A stretch of 64,000 nucleotides of DNA from Heterostelium album PN500 (Eukaryota; Evosea; Eumycetozoa; Acytosteliales; Acytosteliaceae), in contig NW_008805076.1 of the NCBI RefSeq assembly GCF_000004825.1, forward strand, positions 806,001-870,000, in the 5' to 3' direction. A model generated the notes under the pieces. It was not told where the DNA came from, did no database searches, and saw nothing but the letters and a program-made list of their open reading frames with translations. The stretch's first letter is position 1. Every line of letters begins with the position of its first letter. Made by a program: the position numbers and the translations under genes. This document shows, piece by piece, positions 29,889 to 45,670 of this stretch.

Positions 29889-30342
29889 ATGAAAGTTTTA
29901 ATTGCTCTTTTTGTTTTGATGGCAGTTGCCTTTACCAGTGCACACTACAGCTGTGGTGCCAACATCTGCAATCCATATTACTCATGTGTTTTGGATGGAC
30001 ATGATTACGGATGTATCTTTAGATGTGATCGTGTTACATTGACACAAAAGATTGTCAAACAATGGACTGATGACAACGGAAGCAAACCATACACTCAAGT
30101 GGAAGTCACCATCAGAAACAACGGTCCAAGATCAGTCAACCAAGTTGTTATCGGTGCTGCCGATGGTACTTTGAACATTAAGAGATGCAACTTCCATCTG
30201 GAACATTGCTGTTGTCGGTGCTGATTTCACACTCCCATCGTATGCCTCAACATTGGGTGCTGGTCAAACATTCACTTTCGGATACATCAACAAAGGTAAT
30301 CAACCAGCCAACATGTACCTCAAGTATGCTCATGTCCTCTAA
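29889..30342 (+). pseudogene. Secreted CBM49-type cellulose-binding protein, copy 1, frameshifted
   Basis: Close copy of the intact gene at 44473-44925. The start, signal peptide (MKVLIALFVLMAVAFTSA) and first half are intact. One extra A near 30180-30181 (ACATTAAGAGATG against ACATTAGAGACG) shifts the frame, so the predicted product ends early after about 111 residues. It then loses the second half of the CBM49 beta-sandwich, including the LPSYASTLGAGQTFTFGYI strand pair. The original stop is still present at 30340-30342, and the total length is exactly one base longer than the intact copy. The promoter is well preserved, so a truncated secreted peptide could still be made. A one-base sequencing or assembly error in a repeated gene is the main alternative. 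Confidence 0.75.
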
Positions 30343-30529
30343 ATTGTTTGATTGAGTTTCCAACCATATCCATCTATCTATTTATTAAAATTATTAAATT
30401 AATTTTAATAAAGATCACCTTACAATTTTTTAAAATAAACATTTATTACATTTGTAAAAAAATACCACCTATTTTTTTCTTTTTTTTTTAGAATTTGAAA
30501 ATAAGATTAAAAAAAAGATTAGAAATAAG

Positions 30530-32289
30530 ATGTTTAATAATAATAATAATAATAAAGAACAAACTTTAATTGATTTGGAATGTTCAGAACATAAAAAGGT
30601 GTTTGAATATATATGTTTAAAGTGCAATAATCTATTTTGCTACCGATGTGCCAATAATCATACAAAATCACACGCACAACACCATTGTGATCATATCGAT
30701 GAAATCAAATCACATTTAAATTCAACCAATTTATCTTTTAATACTAAGAATAATAATAATACCAGTAATCAAGATAATTACATTCGATTACGTATCGATA
30801 ATTTATGGTTAAAGATTAAAAGCTCATCAAAACAAATCGAATCATTTGAACAAAACATCGATGAAATCAGCAATCACTTTCAACAACTTCATCAATATCT
30901 AATTGTTGAAGAACATAAACTAAAGAAACCAATCATTAATAATATTGATGAATTAAAGGAGGAAATCAATCAACAACTTGATCAATTGAAATCGATCATC
31001 AACATTGTAGATCTATATCAACATCATTATAATCAACAACCAAATAATGAAAATGATAGTAGTAATTTAGAAGATATTGGCAATAATGATGATATTACCG
31101 AAAGATATTCAATAGAGTCAATCATTAAAAGCATTCAAATATCACAAACAATCATTGAATTTATAGATAGTAATAATAAAACGATCTTTAATCAACATAA
31201 CAATAATAATATGATAAACTATTATAAAGATAATATAGATAACATAGATTCAGTCATTCTGATGTCAATCAAATTACATAATAATAGATTTCAATCAAAG
31301 ATAAACAACAACAACAACATTTCAAGCAGTAGCATTATATCGAAAGTTATTGCAACGAAACGATATGATAACTATTTGGTGACAACAATGTTTAAAGAAG
31401 GTGAAATCAATTTACTTAACCAATTACTACAACAATCAATAATTGTATCATTGAAATCACAAGAAACAACTTCAAATATTACTAAGAAAGCTCATACCAA
31501 CGATATAGAGATTACAAAGCGATATATGCCAGAATTGTTTGATGACCATTGCTTTTATCTTTGTAAATTGGTAATTGTTGGTGATCCAAGCGTTGGAAAG
31601 GTAAACTTTAAACTAAATATAAAATAGATTCTTATTGCAATATCTTAATATTAATAATCAATTGAATAGTCTTCAATCCTGAAAAGATTCACAGATGATC
31701 GATACGATCCATCGATTCTTCTGACAATCAATGTTGACTTTGGAATTAGAACGATCGAGCATGAATCACTCAAATATAAACTGCAAATTTGGGATATTGC
31801 TGGCCAGTCTGCATTTAGAACTGTGACAAATTCCTACTTTCTGGGTGCCAATGCTTTTCTAATTGTATATGATGTCAGCTATGAACGATCTTTTAACAGT
31901 AAGAGAATGAGAAGGTGTTATTAATGATATTTAACCAAATTTACTAATTGTAATTTAACCAATCTACTAAAGATTTAAGAGAATGGCTCACACGTATTAG
32001 CATCAATCAAGAGGCAATCAAAATTATTGTTGGCACTAAGAGTGATCATCCAAAGAGAGTGATTCAATACCAACAAGGCAAAGAGTTGGCTGACGAATTG
32101 GGTTTGGATTTCTTTGAGATATCAGCAAAGACTGGACAAGGTGTTGATGCTGCATTCACCAGTATCGTTGATAGATTTAAACATTGTATTCTTGATGAGC
32201 ATGGTGATCTAGTTTATGTCAACGGTCTTAAGAAGAAAACTAACAATAATAATCCCAAAGGTGGAATTCTCTCTTTTTTTAAAAGATAA
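30530..32289 (+). CDS. B-box zinc finger - coiled coil - Rab-like GTPase fusion, copy 1
   Basis: Three exons (30530-31600, 31670-31898, 31973-32289) encode 538 residues. The N-terminus has a B-box zinc finger (CSEH, then CLKC, CYRC and following His). A long Asn/Gln-rich helical region with coiled-coil character (about 90-330) follows, then a C-terminal small-GTPase domain from about residue 348. The GTPase motifs are G1 GDPSVGKS (split exactly at the exon 1/2 junction), G3 DIAGQ, G4 TKSD and G5 SAK, closest in style to Rab proteins. It ends in LSFFKR with no cysteine, so no prenyl anchor is expected. B-box plus coiled coil plus GTPase recalls animal TRIM23, which carries an Arf domain, but there is no RING and the GTPase type differs. 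The function is unknown. All GTP-binding motifs are present, so nucleotide binding is likely. Confidence 0.85.
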
Positions 32290-32689
32290 GAGTATTCGTA
32301 CCAAAGCAACACAAGAGAGAATATAGCTACAGCTTTATAAATAAATACATTGTAAGATTACAACAATTGGTAGCACAGGACATCAGAGTAATCATACTGT
32401 CAGAGCAATAGTGAAATGAAGAGGAACAAACTTGCATGGTCCATCAAATGATTAAAAATCAAAAAAAAAAAAGGAAAAGATTGATTAAAAGTATTGATAC
32501 AGTATGCAAATATCTATACTTTTATAGAAAATGATAATGAAATGTTATAAAACAATTTGATTACCAAATAAAACATTTAACAACTTGACTTTATTTGGAT
32601 TAAAGATTTGAATAGTTTTAAAAAGTAAAATCTTTAAATTTCAATTGATAATGGGTAATATCATACACATAATTTAAAATTAAATTGAG
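32290..32689 (+). repeat. Spacer with CBM49 upstream repeat, copy B
   Basis: 3' flank of the first B-box/GTPase gene, including a poly(A) run at 32461-32472. The core of the CBM49 upstream repeat follows (32525-32655; TTAACAACTTGACTTTATTTG block and TCAATTGATAATGGG end). The TATA-proximal part is missing: the repeat runs almost directly into the truncated CBM49 copy 2. Confidence 0.7.
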
Positions 32690-32908
32690 GGTCCAAGATC
32701 AGTCAATCAAGTTGTTATCGGTGCTGCCGATGGTACTTTGAACATTAGAGATGCCACTTCCATCTGGAACATTGCTGTTGTCGGTGCTGATTTCACACTT
32801 CCATCGTATGCCTCAACATTGGGTGCTGGTCAAACCTTCACTTTCGGATACATCAACAAAGGTACTCAACCAGCCAACATGTACCTCAAATACGCTCATG
32901 TCCTCTAA
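32690..32908 (+). pseudogene. CBM49-type gene, copy 2, 5'-truncated
   Basis: Only the last 72 codons and the stop of the CBM49 gene remain, beginning GPRSVNQVVIG and ending YLKYAHVL. The frame is intact, and the sequence at the frameshift site of copy 1 is the normal one. The signal peptide, Cys-rich N-terminal part and proximal promoter are gone. The left break is at about 32690, directly next to the core upstream repeat. This suggests an internal deletion between the promoter core and the middle of the gene. Confidence 0.8.
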
Positions 32909-33069
32909 ATTGTTTGATTGATTTCCAACCATATCCATCTATCTATTTATTAATAAAGATCACCAAATTCAAAAATTTTTCCACAAACAAACATTGGTAT
33001 GTGGTATCATATTTTTTCTTTTTTTTTTTAGATTTTGAAAATAAGATTAAAAAAAAGATTAGAAATAAG

Positions 33070-34871
33070 ATGTTTAATAATAATAATAATAATAAAGAAC
33101 AAACTTTAATTGATTTGGAATGTTCAGAACATAAAAAGGTGTTTGAATATATATGTTTAAAGTGCAATGATCTATTTTGCTACCGATGTGCCAATAATCA
33201 TACAAAATCACACTCACAACACCATTGTGATCATATCGATGAAATCAAATCACATTTAAATTCAACCAATTTATCTTTAAATACTAAGAATAATAATAAG
33301 ACCAGTAATAAAGATATTGATAATAAAGATAATTATATACAATTACATATCGATAATTTATGGTTAAAGATTAAAAGTTCATCAAAACAAATCGAATCAT
33401 TCGAACAAAACATCGATGAAATCAGCAATCACTTTCAACAACTTCATAAATATCTAATTGTTGAAGAACATAAACTAAAGAAACCAATCATTAATAATAT
33501 TGATGAATTAAAGGAGGAAATCAATCAACAACTTGATCAATTGAAATCGATTACCAACATTGTAGATCTATATCAACAACACCATTATAATCAACAACAA
33601 CAACCAAATAATGAAAATGATAGTAGTAATTTAGAATATATTGGCAATAATGATGATCTTACTGAAAGATATTCAATAGAGTCAATCATTAAAAGCATTC
33701 AAATATCACAAACAATCATTGAATTTATAGATAGTAATAATAAAACGATCTTTAATCAACATAACAATAATAATATGATAAACTATTATAAAGATAATAT
33801 AGATAACATAGATTCAGTCATTCTGATGTCAATCAAATTACATAATAATAGATTTCAATCAAAGATAAACAACAACAACAACATTTCAAGCAGTAGCATT
33901 ATATCGAAAGTTATTGCAACGAAACGATATGATAACTATTTGGTGACAACAATGTTTAAAGAAGGTGAAATCAATTTACTTAACCAATTACTACAACAAT
34001 CAATAATTGTATCATTGAAATCACAAGAAACAACCTCAAATATTACTAAGAAAGCTCAAACCAACGATATAGAGATTACAAAGCGATATATGCGAGAAGT
34101 CGATGGCAATTGCTATTATCGTTTTAAATTGGTAATTGTTGGTGATTCAAACGTTGGAAAGGTAAACTTTAAACTAAATATAAAATAGATTCTTATTGCA
34201 ATATCTTAATATTAATAATCAATTGAATAGTCTGCAATATGGAAAAGATTCATAGATGATCGATACGATCCAAAGATTCTTGAAACAATGTATGTCGACT
34301 TTAGTTATAGAACGATCGAGCATGAATCAATCAATTATAACCTGCAAATTTGGGATACCCCTTGCCACTTTACAACAGATAGAGATGTACAATTCTTAAA
34401 GGGTACAGATGCTTTTCTAATTGTATATGATGTCAACGATGAACGATCTTTTAAAAGTAAGTAAGAGAATGAGAATGAGAAGGTGTTTATTAATGATATT
34501 TAACCAAATTTACTAAATTGTAATTTAACCAATCTACTAAAGATGTAATTACATTCTCGAGTTATCTCACATTTTTTAACATCTCTAATCAAGAGGCAAT
34601 CAAAATTATAGTTGGCAATAAGAGTGATCATCCAAAGAGAGTGATTCAATACCAACAAGGCAAAGAGTTGGCTGACGAATTGGGTTTGGATTTCTTTGAG
34701 ATATCAGCAAAGACTGGACAAGGTGTTGATGCTGCATTCGTCAGTATCGTTGATAGATTTAAACATTATATTCTCGATGAGCATGGTGATCTTGTTTATG
34801 TCAACGGTCTAAAAAAGAAAACTAACAATAATAATTCTAAAGGTGGAATTCTCTCTTTTCTTAAAAGATAA
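33070..34871 (+). CDS. B-box zinc finger - coiled coil - Rab-like GTPase fusion, copy 2, with degenerate switch motifs
   Basis: Three exons (33070-34161, 34231-34456, 34543-34871) encode 548 residues. The start is the ATG matching copy 1; the frame is open upstream but that part is T-rich spacer. B-box and coiled-coil regions are nearly identical to copy 1, with small in-frame indels such as an extra KDIDN block. The GTPase half differs. G1 is GDSNVGKS and G4 is NKSD, the canonical form. G3 reads DTPCH instead of DxxGQ, losing both the glycine that senses gamma-phosphate and the catalytic glutamine. Switch I also differs. The last 75 residues again match copy 1. It should bind nucleotide poorly or hydrolyse it slowly, acting as a fixed-state or pseudo-GTPase. 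The reading frame is fully open and splice sites are kept, so it is not an obvious pseudogene. Confidence 0.85.
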
Positions 34872-35984
34872 TATTCGTACCAAAGAAGCAGCACAAGAGA
34901 GAATATAGCTACAACTTTATAAATAAATACATTAGGGTGTACTAAAAATAAAAAAAAAATGAAAAAAAAAATTGTTTGGTGTTAAACAATCAAATTTTTT
35001 TAATATTGAAATTTTTTTATTTAATTTTGTACATTTAAGTACTCTGCTCTGAGAGGACCACCATTAAGAATATTGGTAATATTTATTTATAGTTGATATT
35101 GAAACTCCATACTTTTCAGAAACGAATTCTTCATTTCCATGTTGAGAGTTTCTCAGCTATGAGTTTAAAAAAATTGTTTTGTTCTTCCATCTTCGAATAA
35201 AAAAATTAAAATAACAGAGAAAAAATGAAATTAGAGATGTACTATCTTCAAAAAATGTGTCAATTCAATTTAAATATGCTAAAAAAATTGAATTGTACCA
35301 TTTTTAGATCCAGTATATCAAATGTACTAAAACTACTAAAATAAGTAATTTTTTGGTGGAACATGCAACTAAAAATCAAAAAAAAAAAAAAAAAAAAAAT
35401 TGGTTGAAAAGATAAAAAGTATCTTTTAATGATATGTTTTTTTTAAATAAAATATATATCTATGTTTTAAATCTTTTGTACAAATAATTTTTAATTGATT
35501 TGGAATGTTCAAAACATAAAAGGTGTTTGAATAATAATAACATAAAATACATTGAGCCTTCAACATTGGAGTCAACAGACACAACAATAGTTTGATTTAA
35601 ATTGTAAATCATTTGAATAGTTATCCTTTATTGTCAATCATTTCAGCTGAGTGCAATATGTTAAAGTTGTTATTTGTTTTCAATAGTAAATATATATAGT
35701 ATACTAAAGTAAATGAAATTGAGAGAGAAGAATTGGAAGGTTTATAATATGAAAATTACTTATTACTGAATCGTTAAATAATATTATTATTGGGGAGTGG
35801 AGTTTGTTTAATTTAATTTAATATTGATTGGTTGGTGGTTGATAGATTGTTGTATTGAAATTGAACAACGATTGTGTGAATATTCTTTACATTTTGTTTG
35901 TTTTTGATTTGATTTGTATTGTTTGATTGTTGATTGTATGTTCTCGAATGATAATTATTAAAAAAGTAAACCTAATGTGTTACT
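34872..35984. other. Intergenic region with a B-box/GTPase gene remnant
   Basis: Between two convergent genes. At about 35491-35535 there is a short remnant of the 5' coding part of the B-box/GTPase gene (TTAATTGATTTGGAATGTTC, then CATAAAAGGTGTTTGAATA), with a base missing in the lysine codons. An A-run occupies 35378-35399. Otherwise no gene is seen. Confidence 0.55.
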
Positions 35985-36978
35985 CTATAAATCATCATTC
36001 ATAATAAATCTGTTTCCTTCTGATTGTCTACCATAATAAACATAGTTGCTAACAGTAAATCCTGATTTTCCTTGACCTTCCTCTGTCAACTCCTGTGGTA
36101 ATGCTCTAAATGATTCTTCTTCTTCCTCTTCTTTTGGAATCTATATTGTTAATTAAAGTTATTGATAGATTGATTAATTTATGTAAAGATACGAATGAAT
36201 GGATATTATATTTATAATTACATCTTGTTGGGTTGGACGAGCAGCAAAAGCAAAAGCACCCAATCTGAGTGCTTCTTTCTTTTCGTCTTGAGTCGCTTCG
36301 TTGAAATCCAAAAACTTTAAATTCTTGAGGTTCGACAATACGTAATATCTATATTTTTGGTAGTCACCGAAATCGGTTCCAGTGAAGTAGTAACTCGGAC
36401 ATGCTGGATTCTTTAACAGACTGAGATGTGTCAAATTTGGGAATTTATCTTTAATTGATTCAATGAATAACTTTAAATCATCGATCTAATAATTAATTAT
36501 AAAGAGAATGAATGTTAATTACCGATCTACAGATTTTACAAATAAAGATTTTCCTTTTTTTTTTTCAAAAAACTTACATTATTATTATTTAAAGAAAGTG
36601 TTTTCAATGTTGGAAGATGAGGAAATGAATTTTCACTTCCAATTTGATTGTTATCCAATACCAATGATTGTAATCTTGTCAGATTATCAATAGATTCTAC
36701 TTTCCTATAAAAATAATAATAAAATAAACAACAATTAATGACTATTATTCATAATACCTATCATTGTCACTGTTTTTTTAGACTTACTTAATATTATTAT
36801 AACTTAAATCTAATTGAGTAACATTTGGATTATTTTTAAAAAGATGTACTGGCATACTGTCAAAGTCTTGACCTGGACATGCTATTGATTCTTGCATTTC
36901 TTCTATTTCTGTATCTTTTAACTCTTCTAAATATGAACTCTTTTGTTTATTCTTATTGCTATTTTTATTACTATCGAC
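35985..36978 (-). CDS. LRMDA-like leucine-rich-repeat protein (first exon not found)
   Basis: Four minus-strand exons close in phase: 36978-36788, 36704-36578, 36485-36222 and 36140-35985, encoding about 245 residues. The first ends the acceptor at ATAG|GTCGAT, with a stop just upstream in frame, so at least one more 5' exon is missing. Leucine-rich repeats include VTQLDLSYNNIK, LQSLVLDNNQI and LKTLSLNNNN. They are followed by LTHLSLLKNPACPSYYF and YYVLSNLKNLKFLD, the LRR-capping type of ending. This pattern resembles animal LRMDA (C10orf11), a small LRR protein linked to melanosome formation and Rab interaction. The tail is acidic (EEEEEE) and ends in NDDL. The resemblance is judged by eye, so the function is only suggested. 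The start may lie within 36979-38000. Confidence 0.75.
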
Positions 36979-38752: not shown

Positions 38753-38912
38753 TCTTATTTATTAATACTATACATCTTGTTTGTTTTACAAACCTCATTA
38801 AGATGAATCTAATAAGAAAACTTTAGGTATTTAGGAAAGTTTATTATTATAATAGTTAAAAAAATTGTAATTGGTGAAATAGATAGATGGATATGGTTGG
38901 AAATCAAACAAT

Positions 38913-39369
38913 TTAGAGGACATGAGCATACTTGAGGTACATGTTGGCTGGTTGATTACCTTTGTTGATGTATCCGAAAGTGAAGGTTTGACCAGCACCC
39001 AATGTTGAGGCATACGATGGAAGTGTGAAATCAGCACCGACAACAGCAATGTTCCAGATGGAAGTTGCATCTCTAATGTTCAAAGTACCATCGGCAGCAC
39101 CGATAACAACTTGGTTGACTGATCTTGGACCGTTGTTTCTGATGGTGACTTCCACTTGAGTGTATGGTTTGCTTCCGTTGTCATCAGTCCATTGTTTGAC
39201 AATCTTTTGTGTCAAAAGTAACACGAGCTCGACATCTAAAGATACATCCATAATCATGTCCATCCAAAACACATGAGTAATATGGATTGCAGATGTTGGC
39301 ACCACAACTGTAGTGTGCACTGGTAAAGGCAACTGCCATCAAAACAAAAAGAGCAATTAAAACTTTCAT
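38913..39369 (-). pseudogene. Secreted CBM49-type cellulose-binding protein, copy 3, frameshifted
   Basis: Minus-strand copy, four bases longer than the intact gene. The change is confined to 39212-39235. A single Asp codon is replaced by two codons around a GAGCTC palindrome (net +3), and one extra T lies in the following ACTTTTGAC (net +1). The extra T shifts the frame, so the product from the ATG stops after about 61 residues. The remaining CBM49 frame is otherwise open to its normal stop. Promoter and TATA box are conserved. The remnant of a B-box/GTPase gene lies just upstream on the same strand, mirroring the gene order at 30.5-32.9 kb. Confidence 0.75.
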
Positions 39370-39703
39370 TTTCTTTGTATTTTACTTTGTAATTTTATTA
39401 GTTTGTAGAATGATATGAGTTTATCCAATAAAACCATTCCTATTTATACTTGTCTTTTCTCTTTACATATTCTCTAATCAATTTAACTCCATAATAATAT
39501 CTTTGTCCATTAATTTTGAGTTAGAGATAAAAAATTGTATAACCCACAATATATTTTAAATTATGTGTATGACAATACCCATTATCAATATCAAAATTTT
39601 TAATAACATTTCATTATCATTTTCTATAAAAGTATAGATATTTGCATACTGTATCTATTAAAATCTTGATTTCTAATATATTATTTCTATTTCTAGGCGG
39701 TTC
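39370..39703 (-). repeat. CBM49 upstream repeat and promoter, copy E
   Basis: Inverted copy of the CBM49 upstream region. The TATA box is at 39440-39450 on the minus strand, an ACCCACAA block is near 39541, and the TATTTCTATTTCTAGGCG landmark is near 39685-39702. The core (39578-39632) is shortened: the TTAACAACTTGAC part is deleted relative to copies A and D. Confidence 0.7.
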
Positions 39704-39949
39704 ATTAAATTTTATTCAAAAATTATCTAATGGGCTTATGTCTTTGGTAGTTACAATGAGAACAACCAAATTATGTGAACCAAATTAAAAAAATGTTGGT
39801 TGTGTTTCTTTTTTTTAAAATTAATGCTCAGGTGAAAGTGGTTGGGAGACAGTTTTGATTTGTGTTTTTTTTAAATATAAAATTTACAATGTATCTATTT
39901 ATATAGTTGTAGCTAAAATCTCTCTTGTGCTGCTTTGGTACGAATACTC

Positions 39950-40245
39950 TTATCTTTTAAAAAAGATAGAATTCAACCTTTAGGATTATTATTGTTATTT
40001 TTCTTCTTACGACCGATGACATAAACAAGATCACCATGCTCATCAAGAATACGATGTTTAAATCTATCAACGACACTGGTGAATGCAGCATCAACACCTT
40101 GTCCAGTCTTTGAAGATGTCTAAAAATAATCCAAACAATTCGTCAGCCAACTCTCTGCCTCGTTGGTGTTGAATCACTTTGGATGATCACTCTTATTGCC
40201 AACTATAATTTTGATTCTGTCAATAAGTGAGCCATTCTCTTACAT
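39950..40245 (-). pseudogene. Remnant of a third B-box/GTPase fusion gene (last exon)
   Basis: Minus-strand sequence matching exon 3 of the two intact B-box/GTPase genes, from the CTAAAG acceptor to the terminal AAAAGATAA. The G4 region NKSD, GKELADEL-like and TGQGVDAAFTS parts are recognisable. Several indels break the frame, and GGTTGAATT creates a stop where the intact genes have GGTGGAATT. The 3' flank (39891-39949) also matches the intact genes. Exons 1-2 are absent, so the gene is dead. Position and orientation show that an inverted block carrying a GTPase gene next to a CBM49 gene once existed here. Confidence 0.8.
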
Positions 40246-44066: not shown

Positions 44067-44472
44067 AGAATAAATAATTAAAATAGTTCATTCAATACAA
44101 TATTAAATTAATTATTCATAAATATGTTTATAGAAAATGAGAATGAAATTTTATAAAACAAATTGTTTGATTACCAAATAAATCATTTAACAACTTGACT
44201 TTATTTGGATGAAAGATAAGATTTTAATAGTTTTAAAAGTAAAATCTTTAAATATCAATTGATAATGGGTAATATCATACAAATATGATGTTTAATAGCC
44301 ATAAGAATAATAATAATAATGAACATCTTTTAATTGGTTTAATCATTCAAAGTTAAAAAAATAAAAAATTGTTTATTTAAAAAAAATTGTAATTGGTGAT
44401 CTTTGTTAAAATTAATTTAATAATTTTAATAAATAGATAGATGGATATGGTAGGAAAACTCAATCAAACAAT
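44067..44472 (+). repeat. CBM49 upstream repeat core, copy C, with a B-box/GTPase gene remnant
   Basis: After the Cry-like gene, 44131-44269 repeats the core of the CBM49 upstream region in plus orientation. At 44285-44345 a degraded start of the B-box/GTPase gene follows (ATGATGTTTAATAGCC, Asn codons, then TTTTAATTGGTTTAA). No intact gene accompanies this copy. It marks a collapsed repeat unit directly beside the 3' end of CBM49 copy 4. Confidence 0.65.
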
Positions 44473-44925
44473 TTAGAGGACATGAGCATACTTGAGGTAC
44501 ATGTTGGCTGGTTGATTACCTTTGTTGATGTATCCGAAAGTGAAGGTTTGACCAGCACCCAATGTTGAGGCATACGATGGGAGTGTGAAATCAGCACCGA
44601 CAACAGCAATGTTCCAGATGGAGGTGGCGTCTCTAATGTTCAAAGTACCATCGGCAGCACCGATAACAACTTGGTTGACTGATCTTGGACCGTTGTTTCT
44701 GATGGTGACTTCCACTTGAGTGTATGGTTTGCTTCCGTTGTCATCAGTCCATTGCTTGACAATCTTTTGTGTCAAAGTAACACGATCACATCTAAAGATA
44801 CATCCATAATCATGTCCATCCAAAACACATGAGTAATATGGATTGCAGATGTTGGCACCACAACTGTAGTGTGCACTGGTAAAGGCAACTGCCATCAAAA
44901 CAAAAAGAGCAATTAAAACTTTCAT
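44473..44925 (-). CDS. Secreted CBM49-type cellulose-binding protein, copy 4 (intact)
   Basis: Single exon of 150 residues on the minus strand. The signal peptide (MKVLIALFVLMAVAFTSA) is followed by a short Cys-rich segment (CGANICNPYYSC and CIFRC), then a CBM49 domain over about residues 50-150. Typical CBM49 strands are visible: VEVTIRNNGPRSVNQVVIG, SIWNIAVVG, LPSYASTLGAGQTFTFGYI and YLKYAHVL. CBM49 domains bind crystalline cellulose, and dictyostelids secrete many such proteins into stalk and spore walls. The Cys-rich segment may add one or two disulfides. Its promoter has a TATA box at 44997-45007. It is the only copy of four here with an undamaged full frame. Family and location are secure; the developmental role is inferred. 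Confidence 0.9.
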   Translation of the reverse strand: MKVLIALFVLMAVAFTSAHYSCGANICNPYYSCVLDGHDYGCIFRCDRVTLTQKIVKQWTDDNGSKPYTQVEVTIRNNGPRSVNQVVIGAADGTLNIRDATSIWNIAVVGADFTLPSYASTLGAGQTFTFGYINKGNQPANMYLKYAHVL

Positions 44926-45353
44926 TTTCTTTGTATTTTACTTTGTAATTTTATTAGTTTGAAGAATGATATGAGTTTATCAAATAAAAACCATTCCTAT
45001 TTATACTTGTCTTTTCTCTTTACATATTCTCTAATCAATTTAACTCCATAATAATATCTTTGTCCATTAATTTTGAGTTATAGATAAAAAATTGTATAAC
45101 CCACAATAAATTTAAATTATGTGTATGACATTACCTATTATCAATTGATATTTAAAGATTTTATATTGACAATTTTTCAAATCTTTCATCCAAATAAAGT
45201 CAAGTTGTTAAATGATTTATTTGGTAATCAAACAATTTGTTTTATAACATTTAAATGCATTATCATTTTCTATAAAAATTTTTAGATTTTTATGTATTGT
45301 AATGTATCTATAAAAATATTGATTTCTAATATATTATTTCTATTTCTAGGCGA
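44926..45353 (-). repeat. CBM49 upstream repeat and promoter, copy D
   Basis: Full-length inverted copy upstream of the intact CBM49 gene. It has the TATA box (44997-45007, minus strand), ACCCACAA near 45101, a core at 45137-45274 and the TATTTCTATTTCTAGGCG landmark ending near 45353. It is the best-preserved companion of copy A. Confidence 0.75.
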
Positions 45354-45670
45354 CTACATTAAATGTTATTCAATAATTATCTATCTGATGAGTGTGATGT
45401 TTGGTTACTGTTTTTGTTACAATGAAATATATAAAAAAATGGTGATTTTAAAAAATTTAAAGTTAACCTCAGATCAAAATTCAAGATAATAATCTAATGT
45501 TTAATAGATCTATCATTAATACATTTTACAACTAAAATTGATGAATAACAGCTATATCGAGCTACATTCTAATTCAATGTATTACATTCTATAGAAGTAA
45601 GTATATTTTATTTATCATGATAAATAATAATACATTCTGCTAAACATAAATGTAAAATTAGACTTTACTG
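45354..45670. other. Intergenic region
   Basis: About 317 bp of AT-rich spacer downstream of the G8-domain gene; nothing recognised. Confidence 0.4.

Follow-up and report, generated by a model that had tools for sequence, protein, structure and literature searches.

What two neighbouring genes of the social amoeba Heterostelium album gain by carrying a B-box zinc finger and a small GTPase in one product, and where the GTPase came from, are the questions raised by the stretch of 64,000 nucleotides analysed here (the window; strain PN500, contig NW_008805076.1, positions 806,001 to 870,000 of the forward strand). The two genes, copy 1 and copy 2, lie in tandem, both are modelled with three exons, and their products of 538 and 548 amino acids have the same domain order: a B-box comes first, a long helical region follows, and a Rab-type GTPase forms the C-terminal part. 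On the whole, our analysis leaves the fusion and its single origin well supported. As for its use, we put forward tentatively, judging it slightly less than evenly likely, that the tandem genes belong to a Rab-carrying clade inside a TRIM-like recognition repertoire of H. album, in which the Rab serves as a bait surface. All genomic results concern this one strain, and C15 denotes the contig of the window. The gene models are as follows.

30530-32289, plus strand: copy 1, whole gene (exons 30530-31600, 31670-31898 and 31973-32289)
30530..31600, plus strand: copy 1 exon 1, with the B-box, the helical region, beta-1 and the P-loop as far as GK (splice model, Pfam and B-box spacing)
30581..30673, plus strand: copy 1 B-box ligand segment, C18 to H48 (pattern match; zf-B_box_Trim66 at an expectation value E=0.012, under cut-off)
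31601..31669, plus strand: copy 1 intron 1, between GK and S, phase 0; 0/69 substitutions against copy 2
31670..31898, plus strand: copy 1 exon 2, with alpha-1, switch I, the interswitch, switch II (DIAGQ) and beta-4
31899..31972, plus strand: copy 1 intron 2, phase 1 within an Asn codon; 0/74 substitutions against copy 2, 12 gap columns
31973..32289, plus strand: copy 1 exon 3, with alpha-3, G4 TKSD, G5 SAK, alpha-5, the tail GGILSFFKR and the stop
33070-34871, plus strand: copy 2, whole gene (exons 33070-34161, 34231-34456 and 34543-34871)
33070..34161, plus strand: copy 2 exon 1, with the B-box, the helical region and the start of the GTPase
34231..34456, plus strand: copy 2 exon 2, with the switch regions and a degenerate G3, DTPCH
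34543..34871, plus strand: copy 2 exon 3, with G4 NKSD, G5 SAK, the tail GGILSFLKR and the stop

The original prediction, made from the letters of the window, had placed here two adjacent three-exon fusion genes with junctions at 31600/31670 and 31898/31973 in the first, and these coordinates are confirmed: every intron of copies 1 and 2 is GT..AG, and the spliced reading frames are open throughout. The splicing is further supported because an ordinary Rab8-like gene of the same genome has identical intron positions and because six gene models show a common layout. As the splice models are drawn from genomic sequence only, one may suppose that the B-box exon and the GTPase exons belong to separate transcripts. 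This is very improbable, since the splice sites match those of the Rab8-like gene, and we rejected it on the ground that, in each of the six models, the B-box frame of exon 1 already runs on into beta-1 and the P-loop.

These six models come from genome searches with copy 1 (80 of 347 candidates scored) and with the GTPase parts as queries. They are copies 1 and 2, C15_604, C25_433, C25_437 and C7_165, all with three exons, the first of which extends through beta-1 and the P-loop to GK. Among them, C7_165 is doubtful, having a short exon 2, a Lys after GK and a modelled tail without SFxKR. In addition, partial or broken copies are found at C15:582k, C15:595k, C9:1811k and window positions 39881-40216. 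At C9:1814k the GTPase exons stand behind a frame-broken exon 1, and C9:1804k shares this break and shows no match to the B-box; the break lies at the same place of exon 1 in both loci (L041, C9:1810500-1818000, and L048, C9:1803500-1808500). The B-box half at C9:1811k is followed by frames resembling what we take to be a transposase.

One member is present among deposited proteins. The paralog at C15:604k is listed as P0001 under the name 'ADP-ribosylation factor-related protein' and shares 66% identity with copy 1 over 93%. At the C-terminus the deposited sequence departs from our splice model, which ends GGFLSFLKR; it seems to be mis-spliced there, hiding this conserved tail. Among the 7993 candidates scored in a protein search nothing is closer to copy 1 than P0001, so that copies 1 and 2 seem to be unannotated or otherwise modelled. 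We then consider the tree of N-terminal halves, which holds 43 B-box rows (6 of Rab type and 37 others, taken from part of the family loci, with frames dropped that had no B-box-like pattern or fewer than 300 codons). The six Rab-type rows form one clade with support 100/98, and the Rab type takes one change on this tree, against a shuffled mean of 5.7. Because the six members form one clade, a single fusion event followed by duplication is likely on these sequences. Protein searches for the fusion elsewhere with the B-box/helical half returned H. album proteins only; they need shared 5-residue words (one scored the 7993 top candidates and another listed 120 of 368 matches), and thus do not establish its absence elsewhere.

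The Rab-style GTPase named in the original prediction is borne out. Pfam Ras is matched with 157.7 bits by copy 1 and 123.7 bits by copy 2 (cut-off 21.6), copy 1 reaching 46.0 bits with Arf, and the best PDB matches of the copy 1 GTPase part are Rab1A, Rab1B and Sec4 chains. In the AlphaFold2 model of the P0001 fusion the mean predicted local distance difference test score (pLDDT) is 57 and the B-box is poor, but the GTPase part alone is well modelled and usable, and it matches Rab1, Rab8 and Sec4 structures with template modelling (TM) scores by target of 0.75-0.88 among the 50 Foldseek matches listed. The P-loops of the six models read GDPSVGKS (copy 1), GDSNVGKS (twice), GDACVGKT, GDSCVGKT and GDSTVGKK, five of them keeping the Ser or Thr after GK; the C-terminal SFxKR is likewise kept in five. 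The switch I Thr (by alignment) and SAK occur in all six, and G4 is NKSD or NKCD, with TKSD in copy 1. The G3 motif DxxGQ, in contrast, is kept in one model, copy 1, where DIAGQ had been read correctly at the outset; the other five have DTPCH (copy 2), DTSGL, DTSGT, DTCGN and DTYGF. None of the six has a Cys within its last ten residues, so that the prenylation cysteine is missing, as was also predicted. Following the general reading of Rab G motifs in terms of binding and hydrolysis, the Rab half probably binds guanine nucleotide, because the P-loop Lys, the switch I Thr, NKxD/TKxD and SAK are kept, with little hydrolysis expected except perhaps in copy 1.

For the N-terminal half, the two other predicted features, a B-box and a missing RING, hold as well. 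The ligand spacing CxxHx7CxxCx4CxxCxxxH...H is present by pattern match in all six models; the Pfam B-box models stay under cut-off in copies 1 and 2, P0001 and C25_433, and no RING family is among the Pfam matches of these four. A further B-box/GTPase copy, C9:1814658, passes PF00643 with 31.6 bits against a cut-off of 24.1; it is frame-broken, with the GTPase exons downstream, and was left out of the tree. AlphaFold2 places a helix at residues 81-178 of P0001, after the B-box, at pLDDT about 60. In a relative, P0131, the N-terminal 50 residues have pLDDT 69-85 and are followed by a 92-residue helix (75-166) of lower confidence.

The origin of the GTPase half is suggested by its introns. The ordinary Rab8-like gene, located at C10:2062700-2064100, ends in cysteines and has Rab8A as its best PDB matches. 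It is interrupted by one intron after GK (phase 0) and by another within the Asn codon after SFG (phase 1), which are the positions and phases of copy 1. The B-box relatives are often single open frames, and 58 of 109 B-box matches sit in open frames of 550-700 codons. Because the introns match those of the Rab8-like gene and the B-box relatives are often uninterrupted, it is probable that a Rab1/8-type gene that already had introns became attached to a B-box exon, with the joint before beta-1.

It is of interest to see what other C-terminal domains the same N-terminal half carries. The B-box/helical half of copy 1 is found at no fewer than 74 distinct places of the genome (at least 74 by our own count, from 90 matches listed), and PF00643 has at least 109 genome matches, all above cut-off (150 of 192 candidates scored), some of which may lie outside the family of copy 1. 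Pfam finds a kelch propeller in P0006 and P0007, the P0131 model has 24 strands and matches kelch domains such as those of KLHL2 and Keap1, and 17 of the 37 non-Rab tree rows are assigned to the kelch type by motif only. Two recent kelch groups were chosen by nucleotide identity, C11 (four genes: L033, L034, L051 and L054) and C5 (five genes: L061, L067 and L071-L073). In C11, the proportion of nonsynonymous differences (pN) is 0.00-0.035 in the N-terminal segments (0.071 in one) and 0.034-0.120 in the propeller segments, in several of which it is far above the synonymous proportion (pS), for example 0.120 versus 0.006. The site models M2a and M1a were compared with our own implementation, with branch lengths scaled from M0, assumed topologies and no recombination in the model; M2a is favoured with P of 1e-15 and 2e-28 in the propellers of the two groups, the N-terminal halves giving 0.083 and 6e-5. 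Above 0.9, 37 propeller sites are inferred to be under positive selection, and 36 of them are outside the strands. All 36 loop sites fall in the alternate loops 1-2, 3-4 ... 23-24, which in an antiparallel propeller would place them on one face, as judged from the strand order in the P0131 model and not from coordinates. The alternate loops hold 94 of the 135 loop residues; the probability of such a pattern arising by chance is 0.004 for the group with 15 sites and 0.0005 for that with 21, figures that are somewhat optimistic as neighbouring sites are not independent. The 36 sites amount to 28 distinct positions, 8 of them common to both groups (p 1.6e-6).

Duplicates in the Rab clade also differ unevenly. 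Between copies 1 and 2, the introns have 0/143 substitutions versus 41/223 in exon 2 (Fisher p 4e-10); more changes cluster immediately ahead of beta-1 and where exon 3 begins, and alpha-3 is divergent too. Counted in codons, the GTPase part has 48 nonsynonymous changes and 10 synonymous ones, the part before it 12 and 8. The second tandem pair, C25_433 and C25_437, has 2/163 substitutions in its introns. Its GTPase part has 29 nonsynonymous codons and 1 synonymous, with a ratio of nonsynonymous to synonymous rates (omega) of 6.3 (p 0.017), and the stretch before the GTPase has 15 to 7, with omega 0.60. The segment before beta-1 and both switches taken together give 22 to 0 (p 0.0037, for segments picked after seeing the data), while no nonsynonymous change falls in beta-2/beta-3 and 2 fall in the roughly 139 sites from beta-5 to alpha-5. 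In the 159 columns of the GTPase core, 40 and 19 are changed in the two pairs and 11 in both (p 0.0012). The changed columns are concentrated in the switches (p 9e-4 and 2e-6), with switch boundaries taken from a Rab1A alignment and general knowledge and not from mapped coordinates.

From the architecture, the clade, the introns, the loss of motif and anchor and the concentration of change, all of which can be read in the DNA, we infer a bait function, together with nucleotide binding, oligomerisation and microbial partners, in the following way. The conserved B-box and helical, coiled-coil-like half would presumably serve self-assembly and signalling, and the C-terminal recognition domain would change faster; in several relatives this domain is a kelch-type propeller with six blades. 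In one line a Rab1/8-type gene with its introns would have been fused on, most likely once, and then duplicated. Its product, probably nucleotide-binding, has no membrane anchor and, in five of six members, no catalytic DxxGQ, and the surface that faces effectors (both switches and the stretch ahead of beta-1, with alpha-3 in copies 1 and 2) is what varies most between duplicates. Such a soluble, oligomeric Rab look-alike may bind proteins that target Rabs, most likely from microbes that have been ingested or live inside the cell, and the B-box/coil scaffold may present the bound proteins to the ubiquitin or autophagy machinery.

Several results weigh against this proposal, and within the Rab clade the formal tests of selection do not agree. 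Copies 1 and 2 have a pairwise omega of 0.70 in the GTPase part and of 0.35 in the pre-beta-1 and switch segments (p 0.037 for a value below 1, the alignment being unsure from indels), so that this pair may have retained old differences while its introns and flanks were evened out by gene conversion. The M1a/M2a site test of the GTPase part with five sequences of the Rab clade (C7_165 left out) shows no positive selection (twice the log-likelihood difference, 2dlnL, 0.00), perhaps owing to the long tree (3.6). The B-box/helical part of the Rab clade also favours M2a (P 0.026), as does that of the C5 kelch group (P 6e-5), so the contrast between N- and C-terminal parts is not clean; in C11, pS is above pN in two propeller segments. 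Moreover, since no RING was found, a ubiquitin role is without support in the sequence. Gene conversion may explain the islands, if the introns, coil and tail of neighbours were levelled and selected or chance segments kept their old differences. The unchanged introns of copies 1 and 2 fit this, although the helical region has pS 0.055, and so do their GTPase omega and the mere 2 changed codons from residue 191 to 330. However, the search for an outside donor of exon 2 gave none with copy 1 (best other match copy 2, 59%) or copy 2 (copy 1 53%, next 40% and less) as query, and the C25 pair has a single synonymous change in its GTPase part; we regard this explanation as fairly unlikely.

The remaining alternatives concern the GTPase itself. 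Copy 1 may be a working Rab-like switch for secretory or phagosomal traffic, a host trafficking or scaffold GTPase used as TRIM23 uses Arf, with the other copies specialised or failing. It keeps the canonical DIAGQ, P-loop, TKSD and SAK, and Rab1A, Rab1B and Sec4 chains match it best, but a prenylation site is found in 0/6 models, the catalytic Gln is missing in 5/6, and the duplicates differ on the very surface where Rabs meet their regulators, all of which makes it unlikely. It is quite unlikely that the clade is decaying under relaxed constraint, with a vestigial GTPase half that may change freely. This view is suggested by the frame break common to C9:1804k and C9:1814k, the relics at C15:582k, C15:595k and 39881-40216, the short exon 2 and the Lys after GK in C7_165, the failure of omega to exceed 1 in copies 1 and 2, and the missing M2a signal in the Rab GTPase part. 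A vestige is expected to drift evenly, yet the C25 pair combines its 29:1 ratio with nearly unchanged beta-2/beta-3 and beta-5 to alpha-5, and the P-loop Ser/Thr and SFxKR are kept in 5/6 models and G4 and SAK in 6/6. The reading of the Rab as bait surface stays the one we propose. The immune-like role that the original prediction mentioned as speculation may gain some indirect support from the way the copies have diversified. The widest form of the bait reading, which we hold to be rather unlikely, is an independent TRIM-like innate repertoire in which dozens of B-box genes take part, the kelch propellers showing one hypervariable face and a captured-Rab branch offering baits to microbial Rab-targeting proteins, as an 'integrated decoy' within a TRIM-like receptor. 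If true, this would be a second, independent diversification of TRIM-like recognition, outside animals, and a Rab that serves as the varying surface for recognition would be a decoy of a new kind; purified domains would then allow a direct test of which intracellular targets amoebae recognise.

The surroundings of the pair hold further repeats, listed below.

30123..32351, plus strand: first tandem repeat unit, 90.8% against the second (32690-34933) by self-comparison
32690..34933, plus strand: second tandem repeat unit, by self-comparison
39881..40216, minus strand: relic of another copy (exon 3 and 3' flank), 90.1% to 32016-32359, frame broken

In the relic region, the match of the copy 1 search (39955-40221) carries two TGA and one TAG. 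The relic is inverted and adjoins a copy of a secreted-type CBM49 gene, so that a larger segment was probably copied and inverted. This CBM49 gene is repeated around the pair, at 29889-30342 (with a frame break), 32684-32908 (without the 5' part), 38877-39589 (minus strand) and 44353-45426 (minus strand), the two minus-strand copies being 95% and 92% similar to the first. Open frames resembling a leucine-rich-repeat gene lie at 36174-36978 on the minus strand. Misassembly of the tandem pair is not favoured, as introns and exons differ in different ways and the C25 pair has the same design.

Comparison with known systems begins with TRIM23, whose layout is RING, B-boxes, coiled coil and Arf. 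The likeness is that a small GTPase stands at the C-terminus, behind a B-box and a coiled coil that in H. album is putative; the H. album proteins differ in a Rab1/8-type GTPase instead of Arf, in one B-box, in having no RING found and in forming an amoeba gene family. The independence from TRIM23 claimed in the original prediction is upheld, since the N-terminal half belongs to the amoeba B-box family and the GTPase scores Ras/Rab over Arf. The claim that only TRIM23 is similar in plan was too narrow: there are six H. album genes, and among the matches listed two metatranscriptome proteins, P0092 and P0102, have a Rab at the N-terminus and, at the C-terminus, a B-box that passes the Pfam cut-off. 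They share the combination in one chain but in opposite order, and are probably independent of the H. album fusion, so that the Rab/B-box combination has probably arisen more than once. Large Rabs of RASEF type (P0117 and P0119) likewise have a long N-terminal part before a C-terminal Rab; theirs has EF-hands, not a B-box, and they are animal genes. With Rab1, Rab8 and Sec4 themselves the fusions share the G1, G4 and G5 motifs, the fold and the intron positions of the H. album Rab8-like gene, and differ in the B-box/helical half, the absent prenylation tail, the G3 Gln lost in 5/6 and the diversified switches.

PDB titles show Rab1 and Rab8 with the bacterial effectors LidA, DrrA, VirA and LepB, and according to a review, Rab1 is important for the Legionella vacuole, Rab8 is detected there, and D. 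discoideum has a single identified TRIM (PMC5758549). The titles and opening lines of abstracts returned by a literature search describe neither a B-box/Rab fusion nor the H. album B-box family. The closest parallel in design is with TRIM5alpha and the finTRIMs, which combine a conserved half with positively selected recognition loops tied to the recognition of foreign structures (PMC2657112). The H. album genes are alike in being multi-copy, with a B-box and putative coil and a C-terminal recognition domain whose loops, in the kelch groups, are inferred to be positively selected; they differ in carrying a kelch propeller or Rab and not B30.2, in showing no RING in the members scanned, and in belonging to an unrelated host lineage. 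Positive selection on the recognition domain, as in finTRIMs, is supported in the two kelch groups and the C25 pair (p 0.017), and not in copies 1 and 2 or the five-sequence test. Because a steady N-terminal half with a variable C-terminal surface is tied to foreign recognition in TRIM5alpha and the finTRIMs, the Rab branch may, by analogy, use the effector face of Rab as its bait.

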